The position numbers were made by a program, and so were the translations under genes. Below, piece by piece: positions 8,746 to 24,613 of a DNA stretch of 63,121 nt. The stretch is taken from positions 1-63,121 of the forward strand of contig JAFWKK010000032.1 in the NCBI GenBank assembly GCA_017514235.1. The letters run 5' to 3'. Under the pieces are notes generated by a model. It was given only the letters and a program-made list of their open reading frames with translations, was not told the DNA's origin and made no database searches. Every line of letters starts with the position of its first letter. Position 1 is the stretch's first letter. The stretch comes from Kiritimatiellia bacterium. Its GTDB lineage: Bacteria; Verrucomicrobiota; Kiritimatiellia; RFP12; UBA1067.

Positions 8746-8862
8746 TTTTGTGCGGCAGTTATGACTTATGGCGCATAAAAGTGTATAATGTCCGCCATGA
8801 GAATCCTGAAGATAAACAGGCAAGAGATAGGTGCGGACGGCGGTTGCAGCGCGGACGACTGG
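8746..8862 (+). repeat. 117-bp duplicated promoter/start cassette, copy 1
   Basis: This segment is identical to 13217-13333 except for one base (A here, G there, in the middle of the small reading frame). It carries a palindrome TTATG-GCG-CATAA (8766-8778), TATAAT (8784-8789), an ATG 7 nt later (8797) and 22 codons. In this copy the frame ends soon after the repeat; in copy 2 it runs into a DUF5009 gene. Confidence 0.85.
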
Positions 8863-8897: not shown

Positions 8898-9623
8898 TCA
8901 CGTGATGCATGGAGAAGGGCTCTTGGCGCGCCATTCTCGCATGGACATTCCGTAACGCTTGAGAAAAGCTGCTCGCAAGGCATTGTCGGTTTTCCAGCCG
9001 CAGTGGTGCGCGATTGCGCCGATCCGCTGTGATGGCATACGGAGCATCACTTCGACATTCTCGAAGCGGACATGATTCAGTTCGTCCATGATAGTGTGTC
9101 CCGTGGCGCGGAGGAAATTCATTTCCGCAAGCCGGTGTGAACCGGGTATTTGTTCTGCGACCTCCCTTGCCGAGATGCCCTCGCATGCGTGTTCTCTGAT
9201 GTAGGCAAGCATCTTCATGACGCGGGGCGACGTGCCGATGCCCACGCGGGTGGAACCACGGCATATGAGGCTCAACGCACCATATGTCTCGCGGATTGGT
9301 CCTGCAGAGGCATTGTCAACGAGCATTGAAAGAATTTCGCATGCTCGGTAACCAGCCTGCCCGAAGTCGAGATGGATGCTGGAGAGAGCCGGACGTGCGT
9401 TCTCGCAGAGCTGCGGATCGTTGTCCACGCCGATGACGGACATCTTGGACGGAATCGGTATCCTCTGCCGCCGGGCGTGGTCTAGTACGTACACGGCGGC
9501 ATAGTCGTTCTCCGCCATTAGACCGCAGGGTTTAGGCAGCACTTTGAGAAATTCTGAGAAGGCCCTGCTCCGCGTTACTTCTGACCGGAATGTTTCTTTG
9601 CGCCCGAAGACCGCGCACGGCAT
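8898..9623 (-). pseudogene. XylR-type AraC family regulator, 5'-truncated
   Basis: The 242-residue frame covers only the second half of a XylR-type regulator. Residues about 34-100 are the end of a LacI-like sensor (GLMAENDYAAVYVLDHARRQ, then SVIGVDNDP and LSSIHLDFGQAGYRA). Residues about 132-236 are an AraC DNA-binding domain (MLAYIREHACEGISAREVAE, then IAHHCGWKTDNALRAAFLKR and MSMREWR). Family members are about 390 residues, so roughly 150 N-terminal residues are missing. Family-like codons continue upstream of the ATG for about 20 codons before an in-frame TGA. The missing end faces the ATPase/repeat module, suggesting that its arrival removed the 5' part. A shortened protein that still binds DNA remains possible. 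Confidence 0.7.
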
Positions 9624-9784
9624 TCCGTGCAGATGAAGTATGTGCCGGAATTCCGCTCGCGGATTCGGTAAAGATGTTGATCGCGCTCCATAAGTTATTC
9701 ATCTCCCGAACGGGGATGTGTATGCGTGAATGGCGCAAGCGCAACCGCACCGTATGACTTCTTGGCAAAATGGCGGAGCCTAAA

Positions 9785-9894
9785 TGTGCCAACTGACGGG
9801 TCAAAAATGCGCCAACTGACGGGTCAAAAATGCGCCAACTGACGGGTCGAAAATGCGCCAACTGACGGGTTGAAAATGCGCCAACTGACGGGTC
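9785..9894. repeat. Tandem array of a 23-bp repeat upstream of the ATPase gene
   Basis: Five head-to-tail units start at 9785, 9808, 9831, 9854 and 9877 with an exact 23-bp period; the last is cut at 9894. The invariant core is GCCAACTGACGGGT, followed by an A-rich tail. Units 1 and 2 contain the perfect palindrome TGAC-GG-GTCA; units 3, 4 and 5 have it with one or two changes. The array ends 3 bp before the TTGACA at 9898. There are no spacers, so this is not CRISPR. It looks like an iterated protein-binding site. Confidence 0.9.
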
Positions 9895-9897
9895 GTG

Positions 9898-9926
9898 TTG
9901 ACATCGAGACGCAAACATGAGATAAT
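9898..9926 (+). promoter_or_regulatory. Consensus promoter of the ATPase gene
   Basis: TTGACA (9898-9903) and GATAAT (9921-9926) are 17 bp apart, close to the sigma-70 ideal. The -10 ends 10 nt before the ATG at 9937 and no Shine-Dalgarno sequence fits between them, so the mRNA is probably leaderless. Confidence 0.75.
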
Positions 9927-9936
9927 ATTGTTCGTT

Positions 9937-11217
9937 ATGGATAGATATAGAAAGAGAGTTTCAGACCAGACCCTTGCTTTCAAGCTTGAAAGTGCGGGAG
10001 CGGTTTTGGTTGAGGGGGTAAAGTGGTGTGGAAAGACTACCACGTCAGAGCAGATAGCAAAAAGCAAAGTGTATATTGACGAAATTCGGGAACAGGTCGG
10101 CAATCTTGATGTGTTGAAGGTTAATCCCGCAATGGTGTTGGATGGCGAGTTTCCACATTTGATTGATGAATGGCAACTCGCGCCATTTCTTTGGGATTCC
10201 GTTCGTCATCGTGTTGACCATTCAGATGGACTCGGACGCTTTATCCTGACTGGTTCATCGGTTCCAGCAGACCAGTCGGAGATGAGTCATAGTGGTGCTG
10301 GTCGTTTTGCCTGGATGAAGATGCGCCCGATGGCGCTTTGGGAGTCCAGCGAGTCTTCAGGAAGCGTTTCGCTGGCGAAAATCTTCGCTGGCGGAGAATT
10401 TCCTGTTGCCGCCTCAAACGGAATGACCTTGGCGGATGTGGCCTTTGCTACTTGTCGTGGAGGATGGCCTCAGTCAATTGGGTTGTCTCGTCGCGCCGCA
10501 TTGCAGCAGGCCTACAACTATGTGGATGCACTTGTCGAGCGGGATGTTTCGCGCGTTGACGGCACGTTGCGCGATCCTGTCCGGACTCGTCGATTGCTTC
10601 GGTCTTACGCACGGCTTCAGGGAACGCAGGCGACGGCTTCTGCGTTGCGGGCCGATCTTGTCGCAAATGCTGACGGTGACAACATCAAGGAGGACACGAT
10701 CTACTCATATCTGTCGGCATTAAGGAAACTGTTTGCAATAGAGGACTCAAAGGCATGGTGCGCCAACCTTCGGTGCAAGACTCCGATTCGCACGACGGAC
10801 ACGCGATATTTTGTCGATCCGTCCATCGCTGCGGCAGCGCTTGAACTTGGGCCTGACGACTTGATGTCCGATCTTGCCACGTTCGGACTCCTCTTTGAGA
10901 CGTTGGCCATACGTGATCTTCGTGTTTATGCAGAGCCTCTTTTCGGTGATGTCTGCCATTACCGTGACAAACAGGGGCGTGAGTGCGATGCCGTCATTAA
11001 GATTCGTGGCGGCAGATACGCATTTGTCGAGATAAAACTTGGTGGCGGATCGCTTGTGGAAGAGGGGGCGCAGACCTTGAATACTTTGGAAACCCTGATA
11101 GATACAAGCAAGATGGGACGTCCCGCATTCAAGATGGTGCTGACTGCTGTTGGCGAATATGCATATCGGCGTCCTGATGGTGTCATAGTCTGTCCAATCT
11201 CTGCCCTTAGACCGTAG
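9937..11217 (+). CDS. AAA_14/DUF4143 family ATP-binding protein
   Basis: The protein has 426 residues. The N-terminal AAA_14 ATPase domain shows a Walker A motif GVKWCGKTT (residues 27-35), a Walker B-like LIDEWQ (75-80) and a sensor-like ILTGSS (103-108). From about residue 190 it is DUF4143, ending in a region with the spacing of a PD-(D/E)XK nuclease fold: GRECDAVI (Asp351) and FVEIK (Glu365, Lys367). Members are widespread, patchily distributed and of unknown function; mobile-element, defence or toxin-like roles have all been considered. The start at 9937 is favoured by the promoter spacing over an in-frame GTG at 9895, which would fall inside the promoter. A 23-bp repeat array lies immediately upstream, and both flanking genes are 5'-truncated, marking this as a horizontally acquired cassette. 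Confidence 0.88.
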   Translation: MDRYRKRVSDQTLAFKLESAGAVLVEGVKWCGKTTTSEQIAKSKVYIDEIREQVGNLDVLKVNPAMVLDGEFPHLIDEWQLAPFLWDSVRHRVDHSDGLGRFILTGSSVPADQSEMSHSGAGRFAWMKMRPMALWESSESSGSVSLAKIFAGGEFPVAASNGMTLADVAFATCRGGWPQSIGLSRRAALQQAYNYVDALVERDVSRVDGTLRDPVRTRRLLRSYARLQGTQATASALRADLVANADGDNIKEDTIYSYLSALRKLFAIEDSKAWCANLRCKTPIRTTDTRYFVDPSIAAAALELGPDDLMSDLATFGLLFETLAIRDLRVYAEPLFGDVCHYRDKQGRECDAVIKIRGGRYAFVEIKLGGGSLVEEGAQTLNTLETLIDTSKMGRPAFKMVLTAVGEYAYRRPDGVIVCPISALRP

Positions 11218-11461
11218 TGCTTGAAAAGCATAATTGCGGGGCGGCGGTTAAGGGTAAAGTCATTGTTTCTGTTGGCTGGTCTCGGGCGGGGCGAAAGAGG
11301 TGCGGATGAAGGGCTGGCGCGAACACGCGGCAGGATGAAGCTTGGTTCTCCCCACAAGTTCATGTCCCGCCGAAACGCGCAAAGGCCCATTTTATAAGGG
11401 TTTCGCGGGAGCCCCACAGGTTTTAGAGGCTACCCCTGCAAGTTTCTCGCGGATTTCGCAT
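11218..11461. other. Non-coding stretch downstream of the ATPase, up to the symporter fragment
   Basis: I see no gene here. An open frame from 11342 runs into the symporter, but its first 40 codons resemble nothing. CTCGCGGATT at 11446-11455 also occurs at 9656-9665 on the other side of the ATPase module and may mark the borders of the inserted segment; with only ten bases it could be chance. Confidence 0.35.
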
Positions 11462-12454
11462 ATGTTGGTCATTCCGATCGCAGTGCAGTGGTGGAACGTG
11501 TGGAAGTCGGGGAGCGAGCCCGGCGGCGGAGGATACATCGTGCAGCGCATGCTTACGGCGAAGAACGACAGCCACGCCCTGGGCGGCACGCTCTTCTTCA
11601 ACGTGCTTAACTGGGTCGTGCGTCCCTGGCCTTGGTACGTCGTCGGGCTATGCTCGGTCATCGTGTACCCCGACCTCGCATCCATCAAGGCGGCGTTTCC
11701 GAAGGTCGATCCGTCTCTCGTCCATGGCGACATGGCATATCCGGCGATGCTCACCAAGGTTCCTCACCTTTGGCTCGGCGTTGTCGCGGCGTCAATGATG
11801 GGGGCGCTGTTTTCGACAGTCGCCGCGCACCTCAACCTAGGGAGCGCCTACGTTGTGAATGACTTCTGGAAGCGTTTCGTGCGGCCGCAGGCAAAAGACA
11901 GCGAGCTGATCTGGATCGGGCGCGCGTCGATGCTTGCGCTGCTCCTTCTCGGATGCTGGATCGCCCCGCACCTAAAGAGCGCTAAGGCTGCATTTGACCT
12001 GATGCTCCTCATCGGCGCAGGGTCTGGCTCGGTGTTCTTGCTGCGCTGGTTTTGGATGAGGATTAACGCCTGGACCGAAATCGTCGGCATGGGCGTGTCG
12101 TTCGCTGTTGCGCTCGTCCTCCAGTTCGGCTTCCCAGAACTTCTTCCGTGGCAGAAGCTGCTCATTACGATTGCGGCCACATCCGCAAGCTGGCTCGCCG
12201 TCACGTTCCTTACGAAGCCGACGGAGGCTGTGGTTGCCGCGCGGTTCCGAGCGGCGGTGAGGGCCGAGGGACGCGACGTCGGGCGCGGAGTTCTCCTCAC
12301 TGCAATAGCCTCGTTCGCGGTCTATGACATGATGTATGCCGTCGGCGCGTGGCTCTACGGATGGACGGCGAAGGCAGCCGTGGCGACGGCCCTTGCGATC
12401 GCCGCCTCCGGTGTCATCATCTTGGTGCTGCGAAAGAAGGACTGGCCAGGCTGA
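11462..12454 (+). pseudogene. Sodium/solute symporter (SSS family), 5'-truncated
   Basis: About 330 residues match the C-terminal part of a sodium:solute symporter: VQWWNVWKSGSEPGGGGYI, then LFFNVLNWVVRPWPWY and MGALFSTVAAHLNLGSAYVV are characteristic, followed by several further membrane helices. Intact relatives are about 550-600 residues, so the first five or so helices are missing. Similarity begins abruptly at about 11462, next to the ATPase module. The original gene was probably divergent from the XylR-like regulator, forming a regulator/transporter pair. It is followed 1 nt later by the activase gene. A transporter lacking its N-terminal half is unlikely to work. Confidence 0.75.
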
Positions 12455-12455
12455 A

Positions 12456-13205
12456 ATGAAAGGCATTGTCTTTGACATAAAGCGCGGCGTAACGAAGGAT
12501 GGCCCGGGATTCCGCACGAGCGTCTTCCTAAAGGGGTGTCCGCTCCGTTGCGTCAGGTGCCACAACCCGGAGTCGCAGTGCCCGAAGGCCGAGCGCACCG
12601 TGACGACGGATGAAGTCTGCGGACGCGAAATGTCCGATGGAGAGGTCATGGACGAGGTGAAACGCGACAAGGTGTTCTACGCTTCGTCTGGCGGCGGCAT
12701 GACGCTCACCGGCGGCGAGCCGACGATGCAGGCTGAATTTGCGCTTGCCATTGCCTGCGCCGCACGCGCCGAGGGCGTCAGCGTCGCGCTCGACACTTGC
12801 GGCTTCGCGCCATGGGCGGCGTTCGAGAGGTTGCTCCCCGTTGTCGATCTCTTTCTATACGACCTCAAGTGCATGGACGCGGAGAAGCACCGTGGGCTGA
12901 CCGGTGCGGACAACGCGCCGATCCTCGGCAACCTCCGCCGACTTGACGCGGCTGGTGCGAAGTCATGGATCCGCTGTCCGCTTGTTCCTGGCCTCAACGA
13001 TTCGGATTCCGACCTCGCCGCGCTCAGGGACTTCGTGCTTTCTCTCCGCAATGTCCAGAAGGTCGAGATTTGCCCGTATCACACGCTGGGGCTGGAAAAG
13101 TACGTCAAGTTCGGCAGGCAGGTTCCGCCCGGCGTCCCGACGGCGCCGGCCGGCCCTGCCGACATCAGACGCTGGCGGCAGGACTTGGGCCTTGGCATTG
13201 CTTGA
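12456..13205 (+). CDS. Glycyl-radical enzyme activating protein (radical SAM)
   Basis: This 249-residue protein has the radical SAM cluster motif CPLRCVRCHNPES (CxxxCxxC, about residues 31-38), a glycyl-radical-activase N-terminus (FDIKRGVTKDGPGFRTSVF), and SGGGMTLTGGEPTMQ for S-adenosylmethionine binding. LFLYDLKCMDAEKHRGLTG is another family signature. Such proteins use a [4Fe-4S] cluster and S-adenosylmethionine to place a radical on a glycine of a partner enzyme under anaerobic conditions. The extra ferredoxin-like cluster domain of larger activases is absent. The ATG overlaps the operon context, 1 nt after the symporter stop. No glycyl-radical enzyme is encoded in this window, so its partner is unknown. 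Confidence 0.88.
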   Translation: MKGIVFDIKRGVTKDGPGFRTSVFLKGCPLRCVRCHNPESQCPKAERTVTTDEVCGREMSDGEVMDEVKRDKVFYASSGGGMTLTGGEPTMQAEFALAIACAARAEGVSVALDTCGFAPWAAFERLLPVVDLFLYDLKCMDAEKHRGLTGADNAPILGNLRRLDAAGAKSWIRCPLVPGLNDSDSDLAALRDFVLSLRNVQKVEICPYHTLGLEKYVKFGRQVPPGVPTAPAGPADIRRWRQDLGLGIA

Positions 13206-13216
13206 CGGCGTTGGTT

Positions 13217-13333
13217 TTTTGTGCGGCAGTTATGACTTATGGCGCATAAAAGTGTATAATGTCCGCCATGAGAATCCTGAAGATAAACAGGCAAGAGATA
13301 GGTGCGGGCGGCGGTTGCAGCGCGGACGACTGG
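13217..13333 (+). repeat. 117-bp duplicated promoter/start cassette, copy 2
   Basis: This second copy of 8746-8862 has one mismatch. It provides the palindrome TTATG-GCG-CATAA, TATAAT (13255-13260) and the ATG (13268) for the DUF5009 acyltransferase gene. The repeat ends within that gene's N-terminal coding region. Confidence 0.85.
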
Positions 13334-24529: not shown

Positions 24530-24543
24530 GGGCGGCGGGTGGT

Positions 24544-24613
24544 GATTAGTGGTTAGTGGTTAGTGATTATTGATTAGTGGTTGGTGAATAGCGGTTAGTG
24601 GGCAGCGGTTAAC
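24544..24613. repeat. Perfectly phased heptamer repeat (about ten units)
   Basis: Ten consecutive 7-mers with consensus GGTTAGT or GATTAGT run without a slip from 24544 to 24613, the outer ones degenerate. On the minus strand it reads ACTAACC. It fills the ribokinase/transporter spacer and encodes the last few ribokinase codons and its stop (24595-24597). Copy number could vary by slippage. Confidence 0.85.

Follow-up and report, generated by a model that had tools for sequence, protein, structure and literature searches.

A 23-bp repeat array, a promoter and a PDC-S01-family ATPase gene form a recurrent and probably mobile cassette with a candidate cognate operator

What is the compact unit that stands between two truncated genes in a Kiritimatiellia genome, and how did it come to be there? 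The stretch of DNA analysed here (63,121 nucleotides, hereafter the window) belongs to contig C21 of a genome of 3.96 Mb and 82 contigs. Along it, the remnant of a regulator gene is followed by 125 bp of filler sequence, a repeat array, a promoter, an ATPase gene, 244 bp of filler sequence and the remnant of a symporter gene (Table 1). The initial annotation had regarded array, promoter and ATPase gene as a cassette that had entered a divergent regulator–symporter pair and removed its shared 5' region; the observation was partly confirmed by our analysis and the interpretation partly supported. The reading that we favour, with a probability of roughly 0.6, is that the module constitutes a cassette of the PDC-S01 family which moves horizontally, encodes an ATPase-nuclease and regulates itself, with an operator array of its own. 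At the level of sequence comparison, this is suggested by the near-universal occurrence of the array in the clade, the placement of the promoter in the home family of the ATPase, the covariation of protein and repeat, the presence of three repeat codes in one genome and the unrelated flanks of the unit.

Table 1. Features of the module and of its surroundings in the window.
Feature	Position	Strand	Evidence
117-bp direct repeat, left copy, 99%	8746..8862	.	Repeat search
XylR-like regulator, 3' remnant (Peripla_BP_3 + HTH_18)	8898..9656	-	Domain match, alignment to intact relatives
Left filler	9657..9781	.	Among compared loci only short matches in L275 and L282
23-bp direct-repeat array, 4.9 copies, consensus AAATGCGCCAACTGACGGGTCAA; candidate cognate operator	9782..9894	+	TRF score 198, repeat search
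Sigma-70-type promoter, TTGACA-17 bp-GATAAT	9898..9926	+	11/12 consensus matches; similar placement in relatives
AAA_14/DUF4143 ATPase gene, 426 aa	9937..11217	+	Pfam, PADLOC, family alignment, AF2
AAA_14 domain, residues 22-136: Walker A, Walker B, sensor	10000..10344	+	Pfam, invariant residues
Predicted recognition helix, residues 252-264 including 253	10690..10728	+	AF2 helices; covariation with repeat core
PD-(D/E)XK-like motif D344, E349, D351, E365, K367	10966..11037	+	Invariance in 27 representatives, AF2, passages of PMC12988326
Right filler, with dispersed repeat of ~60 bp at 11360-11419	11218..11461	.	Comparison with relatives' loci
SSF sodium:solute symporter, 3' remnant	11462..12454	+	Domain match, alignment to intact relatives
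Glycyl-radical-enzyme activase, open over whole length	12456..13205	+	NCBIfam TIGR02494
117-bp direct repeat, right copy: upstream region and 5' end of NagX-like gene	13217..13333	.	Repeat search, NCBIfam

The frame used in the Pfam search for the ATPase gene opened 14 residues 5' of the ATG at 9937; since homologues align from this codon, it is the most likely start. The search against Rfam retrieved no match in the window at gathering score. The two matches to the left filler among the compared loci are 30 nt at 87% (L275) and 27 nt at 85% (L282), and the dispersed repeat of the right filler recurs, at 82%, on another contig of this genome (C51).

The window protein matched AAA_14 with 44.7 bits and DUF4143 with 105.6 bits (cut-offs 27 and 28.1, respectively). 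Among 27 representatives of the family, no variation occurs in the residues of Walker A, Walker B and the sensor or in those of the PD-(D/E)XK-like motif. In the AF2 model (mean pLDDT 90.3), strands at residues 338-344, 349-355 and 361-367 are followed by a helix at 371-387; sequence and model together display the hallmark of PD-(D/E)XK domains, that is, the acidic residues, the ExK and a strand-strand-strand-helix core. From the search on the PDB with Foldseek, the top matches resulted to be archaeal Cdc6/Orc1 proteins on origin DNA (2qby), with ORC also as a neighbour and with low TM-scores over the whole chain (about 0.2-0.4). The same list contains Cdn1 and Card1, which we take to be PD-(D/E)XK nucleases. 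Probing the PDB by sequence retrieved three matches, with E between 0.26 and 0.45 and confined to the Walker-A stretch, and neither PHROGs nor NCBIfam gave any match for the ATPase. The protein appears to be composed of an AAA+ domain, a winged helix and a PD-(D/E)XK-like domain, and it may have nuclease activity.

PDC-S01 is a single-gene defence candidate of PADLOC that embraces COG1373/DUF4143 ATPases. The window protein matched its model PDLC04790 (E 1.6e-57), as did all 27 representatives at E ≤0.001 (best 7.6e-75), a whole-length match being seen for three of them; the module also has in common with PDC-S01 the combination of an ATPase and a PD-(D/E)XK domain in a single gene. The passages on PDC-S01 in two papers (PMC12988326, PMC13356809) describe it as a very abundant ATPase fused to PD-(D/E)XK, which ranks fourth in frequency among the defences of prokaryotes and is very common in rumen bacteria, where it is the most frequent individual locus, with 10,358 occurrences in rumen genomes; according to the same passages, validation is pending for most PDCs. 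A cognate 23-bp array and a repeat-protein code are absent from these accounts of PDC-S01 (PMC12988326, PMC13356809), and neither "tandem repeat" nor "direct repeat" occurs in the main text of PMC12988326. Moreover, no description of the array was found in the literature searched, a body of text without preprints and with few subscription papers. If the array is cognate and its residue-to-base code real, a family that has so far been a defence candidate would gain a defined DNA partner; the array also bears on how PDC-S01 genes are disseminated and on whether they are rightly counted as defence. A role of the module in defence against foreign DNA is proposed here tentatively, at somewhat less than even odds.

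The initial annotation had also proposed to look for the same repeats upstream of DUF4143 genes in related genomes. A match to the window protein at E 1e-40 or better was retrieved from 51 of 115 genomes, the window's own among them. For the home family, 107 places were found; the analysis proceeded with 99 of them, located in 98 loci, and omitted 8 that were fragments or pieces at contig ends. The removal of three N-truncated fragments left 96. A scan of public genomes yielded at least 582 relatives, 80 of which were kept for the analysis; their records are labelled as Bacteroidota, Spirochaetota, Bacillota, Fibrobacter, Gardnerella and others. Together, the two groups amount to 176 loci, or to 174 after discarding two that are short of upstream DNA; the 174 include the window's ATPase and two paralogues from the same genome. 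Four of the 176 are 100% duplicates, which were kept in the set of 174 and removed for the flank, fake-module, right-end, 3'-end, residue-base and promoter tests.

The repeats do recur: a period of 23 or 46 was found in 169 of the 174 relatives, and of 22 in three others; among 735 stretches drawn at random from these loci, 18 have a period of 23 or 46. When a score of at least 14 is required in addition to this period, the counts are 164 of the 174 and 1 of the 735. Among the near-full-length members of the home family with at least 100 bp upstream, 94 of 95 have a period of 23 or 46, the exception being L127. The cross-phylum relatives with upstream DNA (n = 79) comprise 75 with a period of 23 or 46, three with 22 and one (L194) with a purine-rich repeat of 28. 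Furthermore, 23 was the best period in all seven plasmid relatives examined, out of nine, down to 27.5% identity, the period being weak (score 10) in the relative from an Actinomyces oris plasmid; in the relatives from viral contigs the period is 23 in seven of eight and 46 in the eighth, two of these loci (L295 and L299) looking alike. The array is, in other words, a trait of the family, far wider than the window and present in unrelated gut bacteria.

The link of the repeats with DUF4143 genes held for certain clades and failed for DUF4143 genes in general. A set of other DUF4143 genes was assembled from the best Pfam matches in the phylum (30 loci); 27 of them count, because the longest frame of L313, L314 and L320 misses the DUF4143 match. 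Most of the 27 have no array; in this other lineage arrays were found in L310 (22 bp), in L321 and L328 (23 bp) and perhaps in L322. In a tree of 56 proteins with midpoint root, the array clade falls on one branch (27 of 27 rows, support 100/100), and L310, L321 and L328 stand at the base of the other half. Since many DUF4143 genes of other clades are devoid of repeats, the association between array and gene belongs to certain clades. A 53-bp repeat was seen at another DUF4143 gene (L307).

That repeats, promoter and one ATPase gene form a unit was borne out, the unit occurring in many unrelated contexts and the repeats being near-universal in close homologues. Near-identical units (92-98% DNA identity) lie in unrelated flanks in the pairs L136/L137, L165/L200 and L146/L149, and in each pair the shared DNA begins at the first repeat and ends at the stop codon, give or take a few bases. 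COG1373, with 19 genes, is listed among horizontally shared families in PMC10782964. These sharp borders at the array and at the stop codon also speak for an autonomous single-gene transposable element, of which the array would be the left end and the ATPase-nuclease the recombinase, and whose insertion would duplicate the target or delete neighbours. Such an element would fit the deletion-like context in the window, the identical pair L122/L154 of genome G065 (whose flanks are identical too) and the direct repeats of at least 12 nt that flank 27 of 155 modules, at no more than 250 bp from either edge, versus 3 with inverted repeats, 1 with swapped flanks and 3 of 166 fake modules. A stricter test (at least 25 nt within 400 bp) gave 20 of 78, versus 3 of 78 for inverted repeats and 4 of 152 for fake modules.

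We nevertheless consider a transposable element quite unlikely, since the edge repeats vary in length and gap, several of them look like dispersed repeats, and no target-site duplication of fixed length was found among the flank-tested modules. Neither a repeat copy nor an inverted end was found on the right side of the module, where the own repeat core is not enriched (mean 10.79 versus 10.72 in the control, n = 113); moreover, there is no base preference after the stop codon and no synonymous constraint at the 3' end of the gene. In other sister pairs the identity extends past the stop codon, for 18 bp in L134/L135, 65 bp in L140/L142 and 617 bp in L124/L125. None of 75 within-genome pairs is closer than 30% protein distance, versus 132 of 4020 pairs across genomes, in a test that omits arrays scoring less than 14 (the G065 pair among them) and in draft assemblies, which can hide identical copies. 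With insertion sequences the module shares a compact one-gene structure, the occurrence in many contexts and the direct repeats beside a minority of units; it differs from them in having no right-side terminal repeats, no fixed target duplication and no close copies occupying dissimilar sites of one genome. Its membership of the insertion sequences was rejected, ends on both sides and a fixed target duplication being both absent.

Coming back to a self-regulated cassette, the position of the promoter can be considered. In the window, 3 nt separate the array from the -35 box and 10 nt the -10 box from the ATG. Near-consensus promoter sites are no commoner in the region than in shuffles (1 found, 1.4 expected), so that this promoter counts only by its position. 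A sigma-70-like promoter (at least 9/12) was found in 79 of 95 members of the home family, versus 10 of 95 after shuffling, with a median distance of 3 nt from the array end to the -35 box (10-90%, -1 to 6). The distance from the end of the -10 box to the start codon has a median of 10 nt and is 12 nt or less in 47 of the 79, suggesting that the messages have little or no leader. Of the loci from other phyla, 39 of 76 have such a promoter (shuffled, 20 of 76) and the distances from array to -35 box scatter, which would be understandable if promoter types differ there.

Aligned in register, the repeat unit opens with about CCAA and continues with a core of about 11 nt that is specific to each array, then with AAA and finally with a spacer that is more variable within the array. 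The distance between repeats grows with that between proteins (Mantel r 0.384 over the first 15 positions, with 0 of 2000 permutations as high). The covariation between protein columns and repeat was analysed with relatedness regressed out in two sets, both without arrays scoring less than 14. In the first (54 members, at least 51% identity), columns 251 and 253 rank first and second by z out of 350 (6.4 and 6.1; the next scores 3.8). In the second (67 cross-phylum members), residue 253 has the top z of 348 columns (6.0), with columns 233, 139 and 247 close behind (5.7, 5.5 and 5.1); columns 251 and 257 were not repeated there, ranking 97 and 27 by z.

The pairing of residue and bases was then read in 66 of 128 members, left after thinning at 25% distance and likewise without arrays scoring less than 14. 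The core CGAA accompanies D253 in 22 of 34 members and other residues in 0 of 32; GGAA accompanies E253 in 4 of 8 and others in 4 of 58; ACAA accompanies N253 in 3 of 9 and others in 1 of 57, counts for which the Fisher test takes no account of the tree and in which the covariation is partly shared ancestry. The mutual information (MI) of residue 253 with single bases is 0.70-0.79; pairs outside the helix score high too, such as residue 81 with core position 10 (z 7.4, MI 0.64; 30 permutations each). The AF2 model has helices at residues 214-226, 234-244 and 252-264, and residue 253 is at the N-terminal end of the third, which is the presumed recognition helix. Judged by covariation only, the predicted DNA-reading helix seems to follow the repeat, with residue 253 as the most consistent column.

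A 23-bp array of different sequence accompanies each of the two close paralogues (56% and 53%) that the same genome harbors besides the window's ATPase, so that the three arrays of this genome have three different cores. Searched genome-wide with up to one mismatch, each core was found only at its own array, except for that of the window, which has one extra single site with one mismatch. The repeat codes of paralogues within a genome are not more different than their protein distance predicts, and those of the pair L069/L110, from one genome, are alike; selection for private codes is thus without support.

These codes bear on a second alternative, in which the ATPase gene is a defence gene and the array an ordinary operator for a host regulator or for a phage-titrated factor, rather than for the ATPase. 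The standing of PDC-S01 as a defence candidate and the location of home-family arrays at promoters agree with it; in two sets, however, the repeat code tracks residue 253, which belongs to the predicted recognition helix of the ATPase itself, and a single host factor could hardly account for the three codes borne by the three copies of one genome. We regard it as very unlikely.

The cassette that we favour would accordingly be made of a private operator array, a promoter and one gene for an ATPase with a nuclease-like domain. Its winged helix would read the core of its own repeats, probably by direct binding and with residue 253 as a main determinant, and copies of the ATPase may line up on the array at 23-bp steps beside the -35 box, possibly by cooperative loading. 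In this way the ATPase gene would regulate its own promoter, most likely by repression, although the choice of repression over activation is a guess. Cassettes within one genome can carry different repeat codes and would not need to share operator sites. A bolder version, which we deem unlikely, would extend this to much of PDC-S01: a self-propagating, self-regulated cassette with an addressable operator, read by a winged-helix code (at residue 253, D for CGAA, probably E for GGAA and N for ACAA) whose diversification would permit coexistence in a cell, the array being at once the control site and a cis-acting end for entering new sites across phyla.

The fold neighbours of the ATPase raise a third alternative. 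Archaeal Orc1/Cdc6 initiators consist of an AAA+ domain followed by a winged helix and bind repeated origin boxes; likewise, plasmid initiator genes under iteron control are autoregulated and adjoin direct repeats, each spanning about two helical turns, which their product is presumed to bind. The module might therefore be an iteron-like replication or maintenance element, whose Orc1/Cdc6-like ATPase opens DNA at its own repeats, and this is favoured by the best PDB fold matches (Cdc6/Orc1, 2qby on origin DNA, and ORC) and by the direct repeats that adjoin the ATPase gene. Unlike Orc1/Cdc6, however, the window ATPase has an extra nuclease-like domain, no link to an origin and, as the fold comparison stands, a low TM-score; unlike iteron initiators, it has no Rep domain according to Pfam and NCBIfam, is rare on plasmids and has an array that is anchored to the promoter, where home-family members keep it next to the -35 box. 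Relatives were found in 9 of 72,556 plasmid records (E 1e-30) and 4 of 50,697 phage records (E 1e-20), a pattern scan of IMG/VR gave 8 loci, and no replicon gene was found among the nine reading frames scanned around the module. An iteron-like element is hence highly improbable. A phage origin was rejected, relatives being rare in phage and viral collections.

As for the way in which the cassette came to its present site, the initial annotation had correctly recognised that the regulator and the symporter are truncated at their 5' ends and that both truncated ends face the module. In alignments to intact relatives, which exist for each gene, the regulator remnant aligns from residue 136 of 384, with homology stopping at 9656, and the symporter remnant from about residue 240 of 539, with homology beginning at about 11462. 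Both genes lie on one contig, at 69% identity or more, in four relatives. Two of these (G056 and G049) have the window's order of regulator and symporter, with the truncation points 13.2 and 11.1 kb apart, respectively; what lies between these points in G056 is a gene for a Gfo/Idh oxidoreductase and one for a glycyl-radical enzyme, and symporter and activase come next. In the remaining relatives (G045 and G108) the genes for symporter, activase and regulator lie side by side in a convergent arrangement. The uninterrupted pair sought in relatives was thus found as far as two intact genes are concerned, and a common intergenic region was not.

The glycyl-radical enzyme that precedes the symporter in G056 is absent between regulator and symporter in the window. 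If the ancestor was similar to G056, the window would have lost 11-13 kb and have 1.8 kb instead, and the cassette would sit where this part of a regulator/glycyl-radical-enzyme/symporter locus, as present in two relatives, is missing. Removal of the neighbouring DNA by the module itself is unsupported, the two fillers representing other sequence between the module and the gene remnants. The version in which the cassette replaced only a common intergenic region of a divergent regulator–symporter pair, with the 10-mer CTCGCGGATT as a trace of its borders, is hardly tenable: the two genes are truncated on facing sides, and the 10-mer is commoner than chance in the window (three copies, at 9288, 9656 and 11446, versus a mean of 0.30 in shuffles), but the gene order of the relatives, with the gaps given above, contradicts it, the copy at 9288 lies inside the retained part of the regulator and none is present in six relatives' loci.

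The 117-bp direct repeat was rejected as a simple target-site duplication, its copies being about 0.9 and 2 kb from the module; the pair brackets the regulator remnant, the module, the symporter remnant and the activase.

The regulator remnant, the module, the symporter remnant, and the activase gene are all enclosed by the two copies of a 117-bp direct repeat (see table), which consists of the 5' end of a NagX-like gene together with the region upstream of it; a larger duplication or insertion event is perhaps behind this pair of copies. At L063, the sibling module of the same genome (G000:C61), the module is flanked by two 172-nt copies, 97% identical, of one other gene's 5' end, and the downstream copy appears to continue as the rest of this gene.

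Repeats detected around the module and elsewhere in the window
Feature	Position	Second position	Copies or match
Direct repeat, 117 bp	8746-8862	13217-13333	two copies, 99% identical
Dispersed repeat, ~60 bp	11360-11419 (right filler)	G000:C51:34466-34526 (another contig)	82%
Tandem 7-bp repeat, GTGGTTA	24542-24601		8.6 copies

The 10-mer CTCGCGGATT, proposed in the initial annotation as a possible trace of the module borders, occurs at 9288, 9656, and 11446, that is, three times within 2.2 kb and nowhere else in the window (3 copies versus a mean of 0.30 in shuffles). This proposal was rejected, since the third copy, at 9288, falls inside the retained part of the regulator gene.

In 47 out of 79 home-family modules, no more than 12 nt separate the end of the -10 box from the start codon, which suggests that their messages are leaderless.

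Arrays with a period of 22-23 bp also lie directly before the gene in three loci of another DUF4143 lineage (L310, L321, and L328), with cores resembling CAATTGGACG or CAAATGGACG. The whole G000 genome (3.96 Mb) harbors 24 DUF4143 matches; upstream of a distant DUF4143 gene (L016, G000:C71) there is an array of 19-bp repeats (6.3 copies), which differs from the 23-bp arrays in both unit and period.
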